Below, piece after piece: positions 14,756-21,500 of a stretch of 30,398 nt of DNA. The notes under the pieces are model-generated. The model was given only the letters and a program-made list of their open reading frames with translations. It was not told where the DNA came from and searched no databases. A program made the position numbers and the translations under genes. This stretch comes from a virus, in the IMG/VR virus record IMGVR_UViG_3300017759_000037, positions 1 through 30,398 of that record. One strand, written 5' to 3'. Positions within the stretch are counted from its first letter, which is position 1. Every line of letters begins with the position of its first letter.

Positions 14756-14790
14756 AAAAAAAAAGGGCTAAAATAAATTAACCCTCTTTT
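14756..14790 (-). terminator. intrinsic terminator after the NinG-like gene
   Basis: Minus-strand AGGGTTAA and TTAGCCCT (14778-14785 with 14764-14771) form an 8-pair stem with one G-T pair and a 6-base loop, followed by nine T. It ends the transcript that includes the NinG-like gene (stop at 14830). The 127-base gap 14703-14829 otherwise holds only AT-rich sequence and a possible weak promoter. Confidence 0.75.
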
Positions 14791-15319: not shown

Positions 15320-15325
15320 AATAAC

Positions 15326-15373
15326 AAAAAAGAAAGAAAAAGAAAAAGGACAAAAAGAAAAAGAAAGAAAAAA
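15326..15373 (+). repeat. perfect homopurine mirror repeat, 22-base arms around GGAC
   Basis: The plus strand reads A6 G A3 G A5 G A5, then GGAC, then the same arm in reverse order, A5 G A5 G A3 G A6, with no mismatch. The whole tract is purine except one C in the centre. Such mirror repeats can form intramolecular triplex DNA (H-DNA). In the transcribed direction it is a pyrimidine tract in front of a zinc-ribbon gene. Confidence 0.85.
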
Positions 15374-15473
15374 GCCTACAAAAAAGAAATAATTTAATTA
15401 CCTGTTCCAAGCACCGTCCATCTTTATTAGGTTGTGCAAGTTTTGCTATAAGCTAAACAAATATATAAAAATA
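15374..15473. other. non-coding gap, no gene seen
   Basis: These 100 bases between the 44-residue basic protein gene and the mirror repeat hold no convincing reading frame. On the minus strand a seven-codon frame (MDGAWNR) is present but too short to support. A weak fold is possible (GCAA-AAC-TTGC at about 15436-15446 and GCAC pairing with GTGC). On the minus strand TATATTTG, a good Bacteroidota -7 box, occurs near 15461-15468 without a clear TTG 19-21 bases before it. A small RNA or a promoter for the zinc-ribbon and NinG-like genes is possible. Confidence 0.3.
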
Positions 15474-15608
15474 TTATTTACCTTGACCTTTATATTTCTT
15501 AAAATAGTTTTTAGAGCTTTTTAAGGCACTCATTTTACTTTTAGCGTGTATTCCCTTACGCTTCTTTGATTTGCTCTTATATGTGTTTATATTAATTCCT
15601 TTAGACAT
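15474..15608 (-). CDS. small very basic protein, 44 aa
   Basis: The frame from ATG at 15608 to TAA at 15474 encodes TYKSKSKKRKGIHAKSK and then SKNYFKKYKGQGK. The KRKG(I/V)HAK-x-K…SSKNYKK-x-Y-x-GQG pattern is one I recall as widespread in marine phages of this kind. About 40 percent of residues are Lys or Arg, so it probably binds nucleic acid or an acidic surface. The start shares one base with the holin stop (TAATG), placing it last in the lysis operon. Function unknown, but the pattern makes the gene credible. Confidence 0.65.
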   Translation of the reverse strand: MSKGININTYKSKSKKRKGIHAKSKMSALKSSKNYFKKYKGQGK

Positions 15609-16015
15609 TATTTCTTAATGATCTTTGCTGTTTTTTCTATACCTCTTGATGTAAAGTAAAACCCTAAACTCATTATAACTATCTGACCAAGTAAGTCTAC
15701 ATATTGATTAGCTATGTTAAATTCTCCTATGTTACCGTCTATTAAAGCAAATAGAGTATATAGAACCAAAGAAAATATAGTTAGCATAGGTCTTATATTC
15801 TTCGACAAAAAACTATCAGACTGCATATCTGCTGCGTGTCGATTTGTTATTTCTCTTTCAAGATCAAGTTCAGCTTTTATAAATATCTGCTCCATCTCTT
15901 TTTCAAATTGAGCTTTTTCAACTTTACTAAAAGTATGTTTGTCTATAATACCAGATATTTTTTCTGCTATACTACCTCCTGCTCCTCCAAATAGTTTTGC
16001 TAAAATATTTTTCAT
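15608..16015 (-). CDS. holin of the 3TM gene-transfer-agent type, 135 aa
   Basis: The layout matches the GTA_holin_3TM family: a Gly/Ala N-terminus (LFGGAGGSIAEKISGIID), a long charged helix (about 31-63), then SDSFLSKNIRPMLTIFSLVLY and membrane segments at about 77-93 and 105-122, with a basic C-terminus (GIEKTAKIIKK). The holin makes the lesion in the inner membrane that lets the endolysin reach the cell wall. It is read from ATG at 16015; a small membrane gene (15972-16109) overlaps its start by 44 bases in another frame. The N-terminal part is amphipathic rather than a full membrane span. Confidence 0.7.
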   Translation of the reverse strand: MKNILAKLFGGAGGSIAEKISGIIDKHTFSKVEKAQFEKEMEQIFIKAELDLEREITNRHAADMQSDSFLSKNIRPMLTIFSLVLYTLFALIDGNIGEFNIANQYVDLLGQIVIMSLGFYFTSRGIEKTAKIIKK

Positions 16016-16109
16016 AACTTATTTTTAATATAATTAGTGTTATTATTATTGTAAAAATGTTTAGATGACTTTCGCCACATAAACCAAAAAGATGTTTTAT
16101 AAATTCCAT
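15972..16109 (-). CDS. small membrane protein overlapping the holin start, 45 aa
   Basis: The frame from ATG at 16109 to TAG at 15972 begins MEFIKHLFGLCGESHLNIF and contains one membrane segment (about 18-30, IFTIIITLIILKI). The KH(L/I)FGLCGE-x-H-x-(N/S)(I/L)FT pattern recurs, in my memory, as a short gene just before the holin in related phages. It starts 4 bases after the lipoprotein gene and overlaps the holin start by 44 bases. It could be an antiholin or holin partner. The last ten residues are read from holin leader sequence and may be poorly conserved. Confidence 0.5.
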   Translation of the reverse strand: MEFIKHLFGLCGESHLNIFTIIITLIILKISYEKYFSKTIWRSRR

Positions 16110-16112
16110 AAT

Positions 16113-16460
16113 TTAATTTTTCATTTTAACCTTATTTTCATTTACTTCTAATCTTGATATGTCTTTTGATTCAGATTTAAACGAATTGTTTGAATTGTTA
16201 GAACTATTAGAACTGTTAGATTCGTAAGTCTTATGATTTGAATATACGTTTGTGTTATATCTCCAGCCATTGTAATAATAAGAATCGTAAAAATTACCGT
16301 AAGAAGGATATATTGTTTGATAAATATTAGGTCGTATTCTATTTATTGGTATTAGTAATGTATCTCCTTCTGAAGTAACTGCCAAAACGTGCTTTATAGT
16401 AGGTTGTGGTGTGTATGTTCCACAACTAACAATTAACAATAAAAAAACTAATATTTTCAT
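16113..16460 (-). CDS. small lipoprotein, 115 aa
   Basis: A lipoprotein signal is present: MKILVFLLLIVSCGTYTP, with the lipobox IVSC placing the lipidated Cys at residue 13. After it comes a strand-rich segment (IKHVLAVTSEGDTLLIPINR), a Tyr-rich middle and a low-complexity Ser/Asn stretch (about residues 82-93), then a charged tail. Such a protein would sit in the periplasm or outer membrane. Its place between the thioredoxin-like protein and the holin suggests a spanin-like or envelope-remodelling role, but no helical spanin pattern is seen. It overlaps the upstream gene as ATGA (16457-16460). Confidence 0.6.
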   Translation of the reverse strand: MKILVFLLLIVSCGTYTPQPTIKHVLAVTSEGDTLLIPINRIRPNIYQTIYPSYGNFYDSYYYNGWRYNTNVYSNHKTYESNSSNSSNNSNNSFKSESKDISRLEVNENKVKMKN

Positions 16461-16777
16461 TCTTTTGATATAATGTTAACTGTTTCTTGTATTTGTTGTT
16501 TTGTAGCTTGTATTTTAAATGATAGGTCAGCTACATACTGCATTCTAACTTTACCATTTTTATCTATTATAGCAATTACTGGAACTGATGTTATGTTTTT
16601 TCTTATGTCTGCTGGTTGGTCTTTTAAGTAACTAAATTTAATTACAGCATTTTTTATGCTTGATAAATCATAATTGTTTTTATAATTCCATTTTGCATTA
16701 ATTTGTAAAACAGTTGTTTCTTGTGCATTCAAAGAACACACCAATAATACAAAAAGAACATATAGTAAATGTTTCAT
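16457..16777 (-). CDS. exported thioredoxin-like protein without CxxC, 106 aa
   Basis: A signal peptide (MKHLLYVLFVLLVCSLNAQ, cleavage probably after Ala18) is followed by VLQINAKWNYKNNYDLSSIK, a strand, a helix and SVPVIAIIDKNGKVRMQYVA, in which VPV is the cis-Pro loop and the rest the last strands of a thioredoxin fold. The catalytic CxxC is missing: the position after the first strand has WNYKNN. So it is likely a binding or scaffold protein and not an oxidoreductase. It overlaps both neighbours as ATGA in the lysis-region operon. Why a phage exports such a protein is unknown. Confidence 0.6.
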   Translation of the reverse strand: MKHLLYVLFVLLVCSLNAQETTVLQINAKWNYKNNYDLSSIKNAVIKFSYLKDQPADIRKNITSVPVIAIIDKNGKVRMQYVADLSFKIQATKQQIQETVNIISKE

Positions 16778-17082
16778 CTTCTAAATACTTTAATTTCTAA
16801 ATCTTTAATTGATTCTTTATTTTCTTGTATATCCTCTTTTAAATTTTTTGTGAGGTTATCTATTTGTATAACGTTAGAACGTATTAATTCGTCTTTAAGC
16901 TGAAACTCCATTCTTTGTACAAATTCATCTCCACTAAAAGAATCTATTTTGTTTTGTAAATCAGATATTTCGCCTTGTAATGTGAACCACATACTTGCAA
17001 GAGATACTGCACCTCCTACAATCATTGCAATAGTTTTTAAATCAAGTTGTACGTTTGTATCTTCACTAATCTTTGTTGCCAT
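16774..17082 (-). CDS. membrane-anchored coiled-coil protein, 102 aa
   Basis: A short polar N-terminus (MATKISEDTNVQLDLK) is followed by one membrane segment (TIAMIVGGAVSLASMWFTL, about 17-35) and a long charged coiled coil (about 36-99). The layout is that of an inner-membrane spanin (i-spanin) or of a holin accessory protein with a periplasmic or cytoplasmic rod. It begins directly after the 145-residue gene and overlaps the thioredoxin-like gene as ATGA (16774-16777). A partner outer-membrane lipoprotein is encoded one gene further on (16113-16460), which fits a spanin pair, but neither is proven. Confidence 0.5.
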   Translation of the reverse strand: MATKISEDTNVQLDLKTIAMIVGGAVSLASMWFTLQGEISDLQNKIDSFSGDEFVQRMEFQLKDELIRSNVIQIDNLTKNLKEDIQENKESIKDLEIKVFRR

Positions 17083-17520
17083 TTATTTTTTGTCTATTTG
17101 TTTTAGTTTACTTATTGCCCAATTTATTCCTGCTGAACCTCCCCAAGCATCCCACATTATACCACCACATCCTTCAGAATAAGGAACATCTTTATGTTGT
17201 TGATGTCTTTTAAATGATGCCATACGAGCTATAGTATCTCTTGTTATGTTTTTTTTGTCTGCTAATTGTCTTGCTCTTACCCAGCCTACTTGTGTTCCAC
17301 ATTTAGAACCATTTTTTTCTTTAAATGCTATAGCTCTTTTTGCATTGTTACTTGCACCTTGTGGGTAGTCATTATATGATTCTAATTCTACCGAACCCTT
17401 AAAAGCATCATAACACATTGCTATTGCTTGGTCTTTATCGTGGTATTTCATAAGTTCTGGAACACAACGCATCATAAAATTCTTTTGTTGTTCTCCTTGC
17501 TTTTTTTTAGGTATCGGCAT
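17083..17520 (-). CDS. conserved phage protein with GCGG…WGG motif, 145 aa
   Basis: Two parts are visible. Residues 1-40 hold GEQQKNFMMRCVPELMK and AIAMCYDAF, a short Cys-x(n)-Cys unit I recall attached to phage portals and proteases. Residues 50-140 hold YPQGASNNAKRAIAFKEKNG, CGTQVGWVRARQLADKKNI and DEGC-like EGCGGIMWDAWGGSAG, a compact module frequent in Bacteroidota phages (DYP-x-GA…W-x-RA-x-QL…W-x-x-WGG). I do not know its function; the highly ordered Gly/Trp pattern suggests a DNA- or capsid-binding domain. It sits within the lysis operon and overlaps the membrane gene at 17507. Confidence 0.55.
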   Translation of the reverse strand: MPIPKKKQGEQQKNFMMRCVPELMKYHDKDQAIAMCYDAFKGSVELESYNDYPQGASNNAKRAIAFKEKNGSKCGTQVGWVRARQLADKKNITRDTIARMASFKRHQQHKDVPYSEGCGGIMWDAWGGSAGINWAISKLKQIDKK

Positions 17521-17668
17521 TATTATAAAATTTAAAATGTAATACTATAAATACTACATAAATGTTTAACTCTGTAAAGTCAGTATGCTCATCTTCTGGC
17601 AAATAACTAAAACCAATTAATATGCCAAGAGCAAATCTTTCAATTATAGCAAATTCTACTTTTTTCAT
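17507..17668 (-). CDS. small membrane protein, 53 aa
   Basis: The frame from ATG at 17668 to TAA at 17507 has two hydrophobic stretches, about residues 5-21 (EFAIIERFALGILIGF) and 35-46 (LNIYVVFIVLHFKF), with an acidic loop between (LPEDEHTDFTE). A pattern (I/V)ER-x-A-(L/I)G…(P-x-D-(E/D))…(D-F-T-E-L) recurs in my memory in related phages. The start overlaps the endolysin stop as ATGA, and the end overlaps the next gene by 14 bases. A holin or antiholin role is possible. Confidence 0.55.
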   Translation of the reverse strand: MKKVEFAIIERFALGILIGFSYLPEDEHTDFTELNIYVVFIVLHFKFYNNADT

Positions 17669-18138
17669 TTACAGCTTTTACATTCGCCTGTATAAGTGTA
17701 GTATCTGCCTTTACGTTTTATTTCTAAAACTTGTTTTCTGTTTTTCTTTTTATTCCAACTAACGTGAATCCATTTAGGTTCGCCTTCTTCATTAGGATAT
17801 TCGTTTATTAAAATATCAAAGTCTAAATTGTCTTTTATGTAATGAAGCATTTCTAAATTAGTTTTGCCACCTAAAGAATCTAAATCAATAGCTAAACCGT
17901 CTTTATGAGCAGATGAAATAGCACCACCAATTCTTGAATTTAATTCTTCTGATCTATAAAAGCTGTTAATTCTTATAGGGTGGTCTACCCATTCTCTTAA
18001 TGGCTGAAAGATTTTTTCTGCTATTAACTCCATATTTTCAATATGTTCTTTTTTAGGTTTATTTGATATACCTAAACGTTTTGCTGTTTCGGAACGTACT
18101 GCTTCCTTATAGCTTATGTTTTCGCTTATTTTCTTCAT
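17665..18138 (-). CDS. M15-family peptidase endolysin, 157 aa
   Basis: The zinc site is visible: SAHKDGLAIDLD (His78 and Asp85) and WIHVSW (His125), after SFYRSEELNSRIGG (about 59-72). This is the D-Ala-D-Ala-type M15 (Peptidase_M15_3/A) layout used by phage endolysins that cut peptidoglycan cross-links. There is no signal peptide, so release depends on the holin. The C-terminal tail ends with CKSCK. It overlaps the upstream membrane protein gene by 32 bases and the next gene as ATGA, within the lysis cluster. The family is certain, and the use as endolysin follows from context. Confidence 0.85.
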   Translation of the reverse strand: MKKISENISYKEAVRSETAKRLGISNKPKKEHIENMELIAEKIFQPLREWVDHPIRINSFYRSEELNSRIGGAISSAHKDGLAIDLDSLGGKTNLEMLHYIKDNLDFDILINEYPNEEGEPKWIHVSWNKKKNRKQVLEIKRKGRYYTYTGECKSCK

Positions 18139-18542: not shown

Positions 18543-21500
18543 CTAATTTTTACATTTACATTCTTGTTTCAATTTATCTACTTCTGCTTTTAGTTCTTGT
18601 ATTGACTTAACTAATAATGGAACTATTTTAGAATAATCAACTGACTGCATTTCTTCTGCATCTTTTTCTCCTACAACTGCTTGAGGTAAAACTTCTTGCA
18701 GTTCGTGAGCCATAACTCCATAACTTCTACTTTCATCTGTTTTCCATTTAAAGTCATAAACAGGTATTTTAGAAACCATATCTAAACCTGCAAAGTTTTG
18801 TAAATCTTCTTTTAACCTATAATCTGAAGATGTGTTATAAGATGTTGAAGTTCCTGAATAACTTATTGTCCCTGTTACACCTGCGCTTCCTTTAAATTGA
18901 ACGTGAGTACCTGCATATTGTGTTGATTCTATTCCAAGAGCATAAGTTATAGACGCATTATTATTATATATATGAAATTTAGTATTTGTATTTATTACAT
19001 CATCTATACAAACTCGACCTGAACTATCAATACGCATTCTTTCTGTAGCATCTTTTGCTGAACCTGTATTGCTTACATTAAAAGTTAAAAAGCCACGACT
19101 TGAAACCATCATTTGACTACTCGCATCTCCCATATTTCCAATAGCAAATTTATTGCTACCTATATCGGCTCTAATTTCTGTTACTGTTGGAACAGTTATA
19201 AGCGTATCTGCAACACGCATTCTTTCTGTTGCTCCTGTAAAGAATTTTAACATATCGTTATGTGATATAAGTAAAGCAGCATCATTTGCAGCTAATTCAG
19301 CCTCATTAGTACCATTAATTTGGAAATCTAATCTTGAATTACCTCCAGCTATACCATTAATAGTTAATGATTTTTGGTTAGTAAAATTATTAGGACTACC
19401 ACCAATTCCTACGTTTCCAGAACTGTCTATACGCATTCTTTCAGTTGCGCCAGAGCCACTATCAGTTCTTAATATAATATTTTCATTATCAGCGTTATTT
19501 GATATAAAAAGACTACCTGCATTATTATCAATATTACTATTTCCTGTTGTACCATTATGATATATGTCTAAATCATTTCCTGTACCTAATCTTATTTTTT
19601 TATCATTACCTAAAGAGACATCTCCTGCAAAAGTTGCGTTATTGTTTGTATTTAATTGTAAAGCTACACCACTTCCTGTTGAACATAAAAACTTAAATTC
19701 CCCATTATCATTTATAATATCCCAGTCATCTTGTTGTAAATCTGTAAAACTTAATTTTGGTATTGTTGATTGTATTGCTACATCTCCTGTAAAAGTTACG
19801 TCATTGTTATTCGCCATTTTAAAAATGACGTTTGAAGTAGTTTCATTATAAAAATATAAGAAAGCAGAATCGTGTTCAATAGAAAAATTATTTGCACCTG
19901 TTCTTCTAAAAGCTATTTTTTTATCATTTCCAACATTATTACAAGTAATTAATCCTGCAAAAGTTGCATCTTGTGACGAATCCAGCGTAAGAGCTGTTGT
20001 CGCACCAGTTTGCAATATCATTTCGCCTGAACCTGTTGTTTCTATTCCAACTTCATTCCCGTTACTTTCTAAAATATAAGATGCTCTATGACCACTCGTA
20101 GAAGATGTGTCTACTATAGCTCTAACGTGTTCAGTACTGGTTACAATTAAAGCATTAGCTGAATCATTATTGCTTGCAGCACCCCCACTACAAGTAACAG
20201 TTCCTGCAAAAGTTGTGTTTCCATTATTAAAAATTTCAACAATATCTAATCCATTTCTACCAATTCTTAATTTTCCTGCTGCACCTATATTTTCTATAAA
20301 CCAAGTTCTATTTGTAAATGAAGTATTAGAAGTATCAAAGAATATAGCAGGTCTTCCTGCACCAAAACTTCCTAATTTAATTTTATCTGCTGTTTCACTT
20401 GCTGCAGTTGTATTTGATAAATTAATTACCTGTACACCATAAGCAGTAGTTTCTAATTTACCTATGTTATTATTATATAAGCCTACACTACCACTTTCAT
20501 TTGCAATTATCATATTAGATTGGTTAGCACCTTGTAATCTAATTGAGGATGACCCCCTTAACAATAAATTTCCTGTACCTGTATCTGCAATTATAGAATC
20601 TGTTCCATCGTGATATATTTGTAGGTCGTTTCCTGTTCCTAATATTAATTTTTTATCATCTCCTAAATGAACATCTCCTGAAAAAGTTGCGTTTCCATTA
20701 TTTGCACCACTTAAAGTTAAAGCAGTAACATTACTTCCATTATCATTTACTCTAAATTTTATGTCTTGGTCAGATACGTTATTTACTAAATATAAATTTG
20801 TTCCTGTATCTTTTTCAATATAACTATCATTACTTGAATTTAAATTTATAATACTATATAAACTTGAAGAATTTACATTTAAATCTCCACCATTTACAGT
20901 AACATCTCCTGCAACTAAAGTATTTCCACTTGTAGCATTTACTGTAAACTTATTTGTGTTTATTGCTAAATCTCCTGTAAAAGCAGTATTTCCACTTGCT
21001 GCAGCTACTGTAAATTTATCTGTATTTACTGCAAAGTTACCTGTTGAACTTAAAAAACTATTTGTTGCCAAAGAACCATCTACCGTAATTGCTGTTCCTG
21101 ATTCTGAAACTATTGAATCTGATATTACACTTGTTGATGACCATTTAGTTAAGTTACCTGTTGTTCCTGTTCCGTCTACTTGTGAATGATCTAATTTAGT
21201 CCATTGATTGTTTGCACCTGCTATAACCCAGTCTCCTACAGTCCAGTTAGATATACCATTTAATGTAGTAGTACCTCCAACACTTACAACATAATAATGA
21301 CCTTGTGTTATAAAAGGACTATTGTCTATTGTATAGGCTTCTCCTGTTAACATTATATCTGCACTTAAAGAAAGTGTTGTATCACTATCTACGTTTGAAA
21401 CTAATGCAGTTTGACCATCTACTTGATTTACTACTTGATCTCCTACCGTTACTGTACTTGTAAAACTTGCCGAACTATCTACTAATTTATTTGCTGTTGT

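Follow-up and report, generated by a model that had tools for sequence, protein, structure and literature searches.

A gene pair for a membrane coiled-coil protein and a thioredoxin-like protein without redox cysteines, conserved in lysis cassettes of phages that probably infect Bacteroidota

Introduction

Among the described systems, those closest to the locus reported here are the spanins. The passages of PMC6139136 on two-component spanins (e.g. Rz/Rz1 and PseT.3/PseT.2) give a periplasmic cysteine for 507 of 528 spanin pairs; 21 known pairs lack it, so that this residue is not strictly defining. They also report one survey in which 91 of 677 genomes, including those of Croceibacter and Bacteroides phages, contained no recognisable spanins. 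In phages of Bacteroidetes, unimolecular spanins were the only spanin type found in a 2025 survey, as far as its account of spanins goes (PMC12596118), and proteins of this type were proposed, in the relevant part of PMC8776804, for the flavophages Ingeline and Nekkels.

Two further points of comparison lie outside the spanins. The antiholin-holin pair RI and T of phage T4 combines a small exported protein with a protein that has one transmembrane (TM) segment and a periplasmic part. Thioredoxin, in turn, is treated solely in connection with replication and ribonucleotide reductase in the passages of PMC3556154 that concern it, and the open-licence literature, searched at the level of listings and the beginnings of abstracts, yielded no report of thioredoxin-like proteins encoded in lysis cassettes of Bacteroidota phages.

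Here we analyze a virus record of 30,398 bases (the window), in which three neighbouring genes encode a membrane-anchored helical protein (Cc), an exported thioredoxin-like protein (Trx) and a lipoprotein (Lipo). The initial annotation had suggested that they may form one lysis or envelope system special to phages of Bacteroidota, in which the coiled coil and the lipoprotein resemble a spanin pair. This interpretation is partly supported by our results: cc and trx constitute a conserved unit, whereas the presence/absence counts in cassettes show the third gene to be optional.

Results and Discussion

The cassette and its genes

The minus strand of the window bears 35 of the 40 ORFs of at least 90 aa, including those for a terminase, a portal protein, a head-protease-like protein and a 1463-aa tail-fibre-like protein. 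Past the fibre gene, the order is: a 77-aa and a 56-aa ORF, the M15 endolysin gene, a 53-aa ORF, a phrog_2859-like gene, cc, trx, lipo, a gene for a 45-aa TM protein, a 3TM holin gene and NinG. The M15 peptidase endolysin (17665..18138, minus strand; PF08291, 8.1e-14; phrog_894 endolysin, 3.2e-29) has no signal peptide discernible by eye. The phrog_2859-like gene (17083..17520, minus strand; 7.4e-10) lies immediately upstream of cc, and the holin gene (15608..16015, minus strand) was assigned by its match to phrog_3427 holin (1.2e-16), its PF11351 score of 19.6 bits staying below the cut-off of 24.8.

As first annotated, cc (16774..17082), trx (16457..16777) and lipo (16113..16460) are genuine genes of the minus strand, joined at both junctions by 4-base ATGA overlaps. 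The existence of close and distant relatives, together with low median dN/dS values (0.144 for trx, 0.094 for cc and 0.096 for lipo), identifies them as real genes. The corresponding values for these three genes, the endolysin and the holin span 0.09-0.14, which indicates that all five are under purifying selection.

A thioredoxin fold without redox cysteines

The 106-aa product of trx is predicted to have a thioredoxin fold. Its AlphaFold model, based on an alignment of 21 natural sequences, reached a pLDDT of 82 and a pTM of 0.74; the elements follow the order beta-alpha-beta-alpha-beta-beta-alpha, with a short helix 1, and residues 1-18 have a pLDDT below 50. Foldseek named thioredoxin or Trx in 41 of the 50 matches listed (best E 4.6e-4, TM 0.60); the other nine, the top one included, carry different names and are presumably thioredoxin fusions or complexes. 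In VIA-align, the top match was a designed thioredoxin (Z 10.0, 79 residues, rmsd 2.2), and thioredoxin names stood on nearly all of the 50 matches listed. A profile search of the PDB up to E 10 gave weak but consistent results, with thioredoxins accounting for 20 of 23 matches (best E 0.005); the remaining three (YopH twice and SidI) were taken as chance.

Window Trx itself matches nothing in Pfam up to E 1 and nothing in PHROG with a value better than 0.058; a divergent member of the family (L055) passes the Pfam model PF00085 (29.3 bits, cut-off 23.5). Matches to BppU_N in 4 of 21 members (best 0.0015) were regarded as fortuitous. Among the BFVD structures matched are unnamed viral proteins with up to 36% identity, and relatives of Trx therefore already exist in public predictions without a function.

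Conservation was counted over 82 unique full-length proteins, that of the window among them. Invariant or nearly so are W30 (79), N31 (80), N34 (80), P66 (82) and G75 (82). When aligned with solved thioredoxins, the segment W30-N31-Y-K-N34 (16676..16690, minus strand) occupies the WCxxC position, W-C falling on W-N, and their Pro coincides with Pro66 (16580..16582, minus strand), at the position of the cis-Pro loop. CxxC was found in none of the 82 proteins; 65 have no cysteine past the signal peptide and 17 have one. Trx thus resembles thioredoxin (PF00085) in its fold, the order of its elements, the placing of Pro66 and an AxW motif, and differs from it in that both redox cysteines are replaced by conserved Asn, that it is exported, and that its partner gene encodes a TM coiled-coil protein.

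Since Asn replaces both Cys, dithiol chemistry is impossible for this protein. That the site of the redox motif is nevertheless strongly constrained favours a binding role. By analogy with thioredoxin, we take the substrate groove to consist of W30-N31-x-x-N34, Pro66 and the loop 83-86. Trx would then be a natural case of a thioredoxin fold retained, probably for binding, beyond the loss of its redox site.

Residues 1-18 (16724..16777, minus strand) form a signal peptide ending in NA-Q, with Gln19 as the predicted mature N-terminus; this prediction derives from the Bacteroidetes Q-rule for signal peptidase I, as set out in the relevant passages of PMC5837995. Of the 82 proteins, 79 have Gln where cleavage is expected, which fits the Q-rule and the association with Bacteroidota. 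On the strength of this residue, the phages carrying cc and trx probably infect Bacteroidota. The initial annotation had described a secreted thioredoxin-fold protein with a replaced active-site Cys pair and had pointed to the same host group, and both proposals agree with these data.

The pairing of cc and trx

Relatives of trx are encoded in 224 IMG/VR stretches, 80 of which entered our pool of loci (at most 80 per query). Iterated HMMs were built for nine cassette genes and run over 293 loci, the window's own (L222) included; the gene labels used here derive from these HMMs. Loci were dereplicated by shared exact sequence, by which contigs may be merged or split.

The gene directly upstream of trx was cc in 103 of 104 readable dereplicated loci (109 dereplicated trx ORFs). 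The one exception is the second half of a frame-broken trx copy in locus L211 (3776-4118), where the gene is split into two overlapping ORFs in different frames by sequencing error or decay. A second count placed cc within 400 bases upstream of 107 of 112 trx ORFs, 102 of them with a -4 overlap, and the five ORFs without cc all start within 106 bases of the end of the locus.

Both genes were present in 50 of 74 full dereplicated cassettes, cc only in 7 and neither in 17, and lipo was found in 9, 1 and 4 of these, respectively; trx never occurred without cc. Part of the pool had been found with trx as the query; the count restricted to the 51 full cassettes retrieved with the endolysin, phrog_2859-like or holin query is free of this bias and gave 27 with both genes, 7 with cc only, none with trx only and 17 with neither (Fisher P=2e-8). 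The conserved unit is therefore the near-obligate gene pair cc-trx, with lipo as an optional neighbour. The 17 cassettes without either gene indicate that lysis as such can proceed without the pair, or that something else takes its place.

Distance-matrix correlations did not single out cc and trx among the cassette genes. In 34 cassettes the coefficient was 0.91 for cc-trx versus 0.84 for cc-lys, and in 65 cassettes trx-lys (0.80) exceeded cc-trx (0.70; partial coefficient given lys and holin, 0.55). A separate observation concerns an 89-kb contig (L021/L155) with two lysis cassettes approximately 6 kb apart, both with cc-trx in L021; the contig may hold two phages in tandem, be a chimera of the assembly or carry a genuine duplication.

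Searches of named phages returned no match for the trx and cc queries or for those from L055, L195 and L164 (the records nearest to the window possibly lying outside the search set), and pattern-based scans of genome contigs revealed no relative of trx or of the holin; neither search produced an isolate or host genome with cc-trx. A cc protein of the L010 type matched one hypothetical protein of a Pelagibacter phage in the named-phage search.

The coiled-coil partner

Cc (102 aa) has a short N-terminus, a single TM segment at residues 17-35 (16978..17034, minus strand; hydropathy maximum) and a helical or coiled-coil C-terminal part. The membrane anchor proposed in the initial annotation is thus present; the evidence for a coiled coil in the window protein is mixed, as the heptad score was reached by 17 of 2000 shuffles for residues 36-49, 200 of 2000 for residues 53-102 and 110 of 2000 for residues 36-102. 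Over 88 relatives, the mean number of K+R is 2.53 in the N-terminal part (of varying length) versus 1.31 in the 16 residues past the TM segment, which weakly suggests an N-in orientation. The ectodomain contains no cysteine and comprises about 67 residues, by arithmetic at most about 10 nm as a helix.

The unique cc proteins fall into 68 that adjoin trx (linked) and 20 that do not (unlinked), with none common to both sets. The last 45 residues pass the heptad test (p<=0.05) in 67 of 67 linked proteins (one sequence with an X having been dropped) versus 2 of 20 unlinked ones. A motif of the type ExxxKDxLIR (e.g. EYDLKDxLIR), a pattern picked after the sequences had been inspected, occurs in 67 of 68 linked versus 2 of 20 unlinked proteins; in the window it is EFQLKDELIR (residues 59-68; 16879..16908, minus strand). 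The two unlinked proteins bearing it are the first products of tandem cc genes in L193 and L194, in which the second cc is followed by trx.

This motif may be a docking site for Trx. The contrast tracks clades of the cc tree and may therefore reflect ancestry, not docking. On each of the contigs L231 and L233, a cc of the unlinked type occurs in addition to a linked cc and its trx, which indicates that the two kinds of cc are not substitutes for each other.

Location among lysis genes

The setting in a lysis system, as originally suggested, is supported: in the window the genes lie between the M15 endolysin and the 3TM holin, and of the 51 dereplicated trx loci that extend for 2.5 kb on both sides, 50 have an M15 or holin family gene within that distance. 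The exception (L277) has cc-trx between a gene for a Peptidase_S78_2 protein and two unassigned genes resembling those for scaffold and capsid; elsewhere in this record, at a distance of about 10 kb, there are an M15-like match and a holin-like ORF. The head-protease protein concerned (L277, 2674-3618) is matched by the HMM of the phrog_2859-like gene of the window (17083-17520), and it again stands right before cc-trx.

The pair is embedded in a same-strand run of genes with overlapping starts and stops, which includes fibre, endolysin and holin, and its position relative to the endolysin takes several arrangements among relatives. It occurs together with unrelated holins and with either M15 or amidase endolysins. 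Amidase_2 replaces M15 in L281 and L193, and among 406 cassette pairs with cc and trx each at least 85% alike, the M15 proteins were less than 60% identical in 11 of 279, the presence of lipo differed in 113 of 406, and the holins were less than 40% identical in 70 of the 316 pairs in which both were known. The correlation between cc and holin distances was 0.30-0.33.

The lipoprotein is an optional member

Lipo (115 aa) was correctly annotated as a lipoprotein: it has the lipobox LIVSC, with the lipobox Cys at position 13, and is the sole lipobox ORF among the 180 window ORFs of at least 30 aa. Its model (pLDDT 57) shows only a short beta hairpin, followed by a long Y/N/S-rich tail at very low confidence, which is probably disordered. 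A match to PF12912 (E 0.0059, under the cut-off) was taken as chance.

The initial annotation had linked Trx to both neighbours; the link to the coiled coil held, in contrast to that with the lipoprotein, since 41 of the 50 cassettes with cc-trx lack lipo, and in the 51 full cassettes lipo was associated neither with cc (Fisher P=0.71) nor with trx (P=1.0). Among 24 full cassettes without trx, 5 contain lipo, 4 of these without cc as well. Even the 8 cassettes whose Trx is at least 95% identical to that of the window are divided (lipo in 3, absent in 5). In 18 of 32 dereplicated lipo loci the gene directly follows trx (12 with a -4 overlap, 5 with a gap of 1 and one with -1); in the other 14, some of them at locus ends, no trx was seen directly upstream. 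These presence/absence counts rule out the trio as a functional unit.

A search of the 41 pair cassettes without lipo for a different lipoprotein in its place found none within 1.5 kb on the same strand, the single match (L268) being Trx itself; the lipobox pattern recovers 13 of the 14 Lipo family members in full cassettes and matches on the opposite strand in 2 of 41 (control). Nine records of 30-34 kb, classed by IMG/VR as possible fragments, contain cc-trx and lack the Lipo family; seven of them have no lipobox ORF on either side of the seam at base 20,000. The other two (G002 and G010) encode an unrelated lipoprotein of 81 aa, and G010 also has a 35-aa lipobox ORF that is likely due to chance. 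The Lipo profile matched none of 12 records versus 5 of 5 controls. The unrelated 81-aa lipoprotein is rich in Cys (L297, 5929-6174, for G002; L309, 4024-4269, for G010). In the Lipo family, no cysteine occurs beyond the lipobox, the one flagged sequence having a start called too far upstream.

Proposed mechanism and alternative explanations

These observations lead us to propose, at a probability of roughly 45%, that Cc and Trx act together in the periplasm at lysis, the former as a coiled coil of the inner membrane that holds the latter, a thioredoxin fold without redox function. Cc would be anchored in the inner membrane and extend its helical part into the periplasm, and Trx would be exported by Sec and cleaved before Gln19. 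It would be held at Cc, probably through the binding of a peptide by its groove, for which the ExxxKDxLIR segment of Cc is the simplest candidate; with Asn for both Cys, Trx would serve as a non-redox peptide-binding head. Presumably made with the holin and the endolysin, the pair would contribute, independently of Lipo, to the last stage in breaching the Bacteroidota envelope, and it is likely to be a novel component of host lysis by these phages.

The least certain part of this proposal is the step concerned, which may be disruption of the outer membrane, a tentative and rather doubtful reading, or another step in the periplasm. The pair alone would hardly cross the periplasm, so that a role at the outer membrane would need apposed membranes or a host partner. 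We consider it somewhat unlikely that Bacteroidota phages use a lipoprotein-free complex, in which an exported redox-dead thioredoxin fold caps a coiled coil of the inner membrane, in place of spanins at the last envelope step. If they do, no lysis machinery of this kind in the periplasm has been described before, and such phages would be classed as spanin-less by a lipoprotein search. The pair is widespread in IMG/VR, lies among lysis genes and has no lipoprotein nearby in 41 of 50 cassettes, which makes it a concrete and testable candidate for the crossing of the outer membrane by phages in which no spanins are recognised.

One alternative is a classical two-component spanin, with Cc as i-spanin, Lipo as o-spanin and Trx as an accessory that bridges or folds both. 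The window offers the right signals (a TM anchor with a helix, and a lipobox) in adjacent overlapping genes of a lysis cassette, and the tail of Lipo, the only lipobox product of the window, could reach across the periplasm. The presumed partner of Cc is, however, a soluble exported globular protein, and neither the ectodomain of Cc nor Lipo beyond its lipobox has the cysteine found in nearly all spanin pairs covered in the passages cited from PMC6139136. The spanin-pair reading is weak above all because Lipo comes and goes independently of cc-trx, even between cassettes with nearly identical Trx and in cassettes without trx, and because most of the longer records without its family have no lipobox ORF; we therefore regard this explanation as very improbable. 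Nor does Lipo resemble the unimolecular spanins of Bacteroidetes phages, with which this system has the host group in common: it has a lipobox and no C-terminal TM segment, its last 19 residues are hydrophilic and no C-terminal helix was modelled.

The pair could instead regulate the timing of lysis, as a periplasmic antiholin system that delays or triggers the holin on a periplasmic signal. A small exported protein and a single-TM protein with a periplasmic part, encoded next to a holin, recall RI and T, and Cc has a weak match to the holin family phrog_1296 (E 0.032, with no stretch passing alone). The cassette, unlike RI/T, contains a separate 3TM holin, and the combination of near-identical pairs with dissimilar holins makes a holin-specific regulator less likely; we judge this explanation unlikely. 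Superinfection exclusion, or an envelope-modifying moron that moves as a unit and blocks the entry of phages or their DNA at the inner membrane, would account for a two-gene unit that 27 of 51 cassettes contain, whose placing with respect to the endolysin varies and which once lies away from lysis genes (L277). The proximity of lysis genes in 50 of 51 loci and the overlapping gene run with fibre, endolysin and holin argue against such a role, which is decidedly unlikely. A redox-active periplasmic thioredoxin, keeping envelope or lysis proteins reduced or oxidised, would agree with the fold of Trx, but the absence of CxxC from all 82 proteins, none of which has more than one mature cysteine, excludes classical dithiol chemistry and leaves this function barely conceivable.

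Other features of the region

The number of promoter-like sites in the region was at chance level (24 found versus 25.7 expected). On the minus strand, a terminator-like hairpin with a T tail lies downstream of NinG (14759-14790), and a pyrimidine-rich (T/C) tract of about 70 bases is located between the holin gene with a 44-aa basic gene and NinG (approx. 15320-15390); small ORFs over a similar tract occur in relatives.

The gene for the 45-aa single-TM protein (15972..16109, minus strand) overlaps the start of the holin gene with its 3' end, in a different frame. Its product has a conserved CG(E/D)xHxN-like segment and counterparts in many relatives, and is possibly an antiholin.
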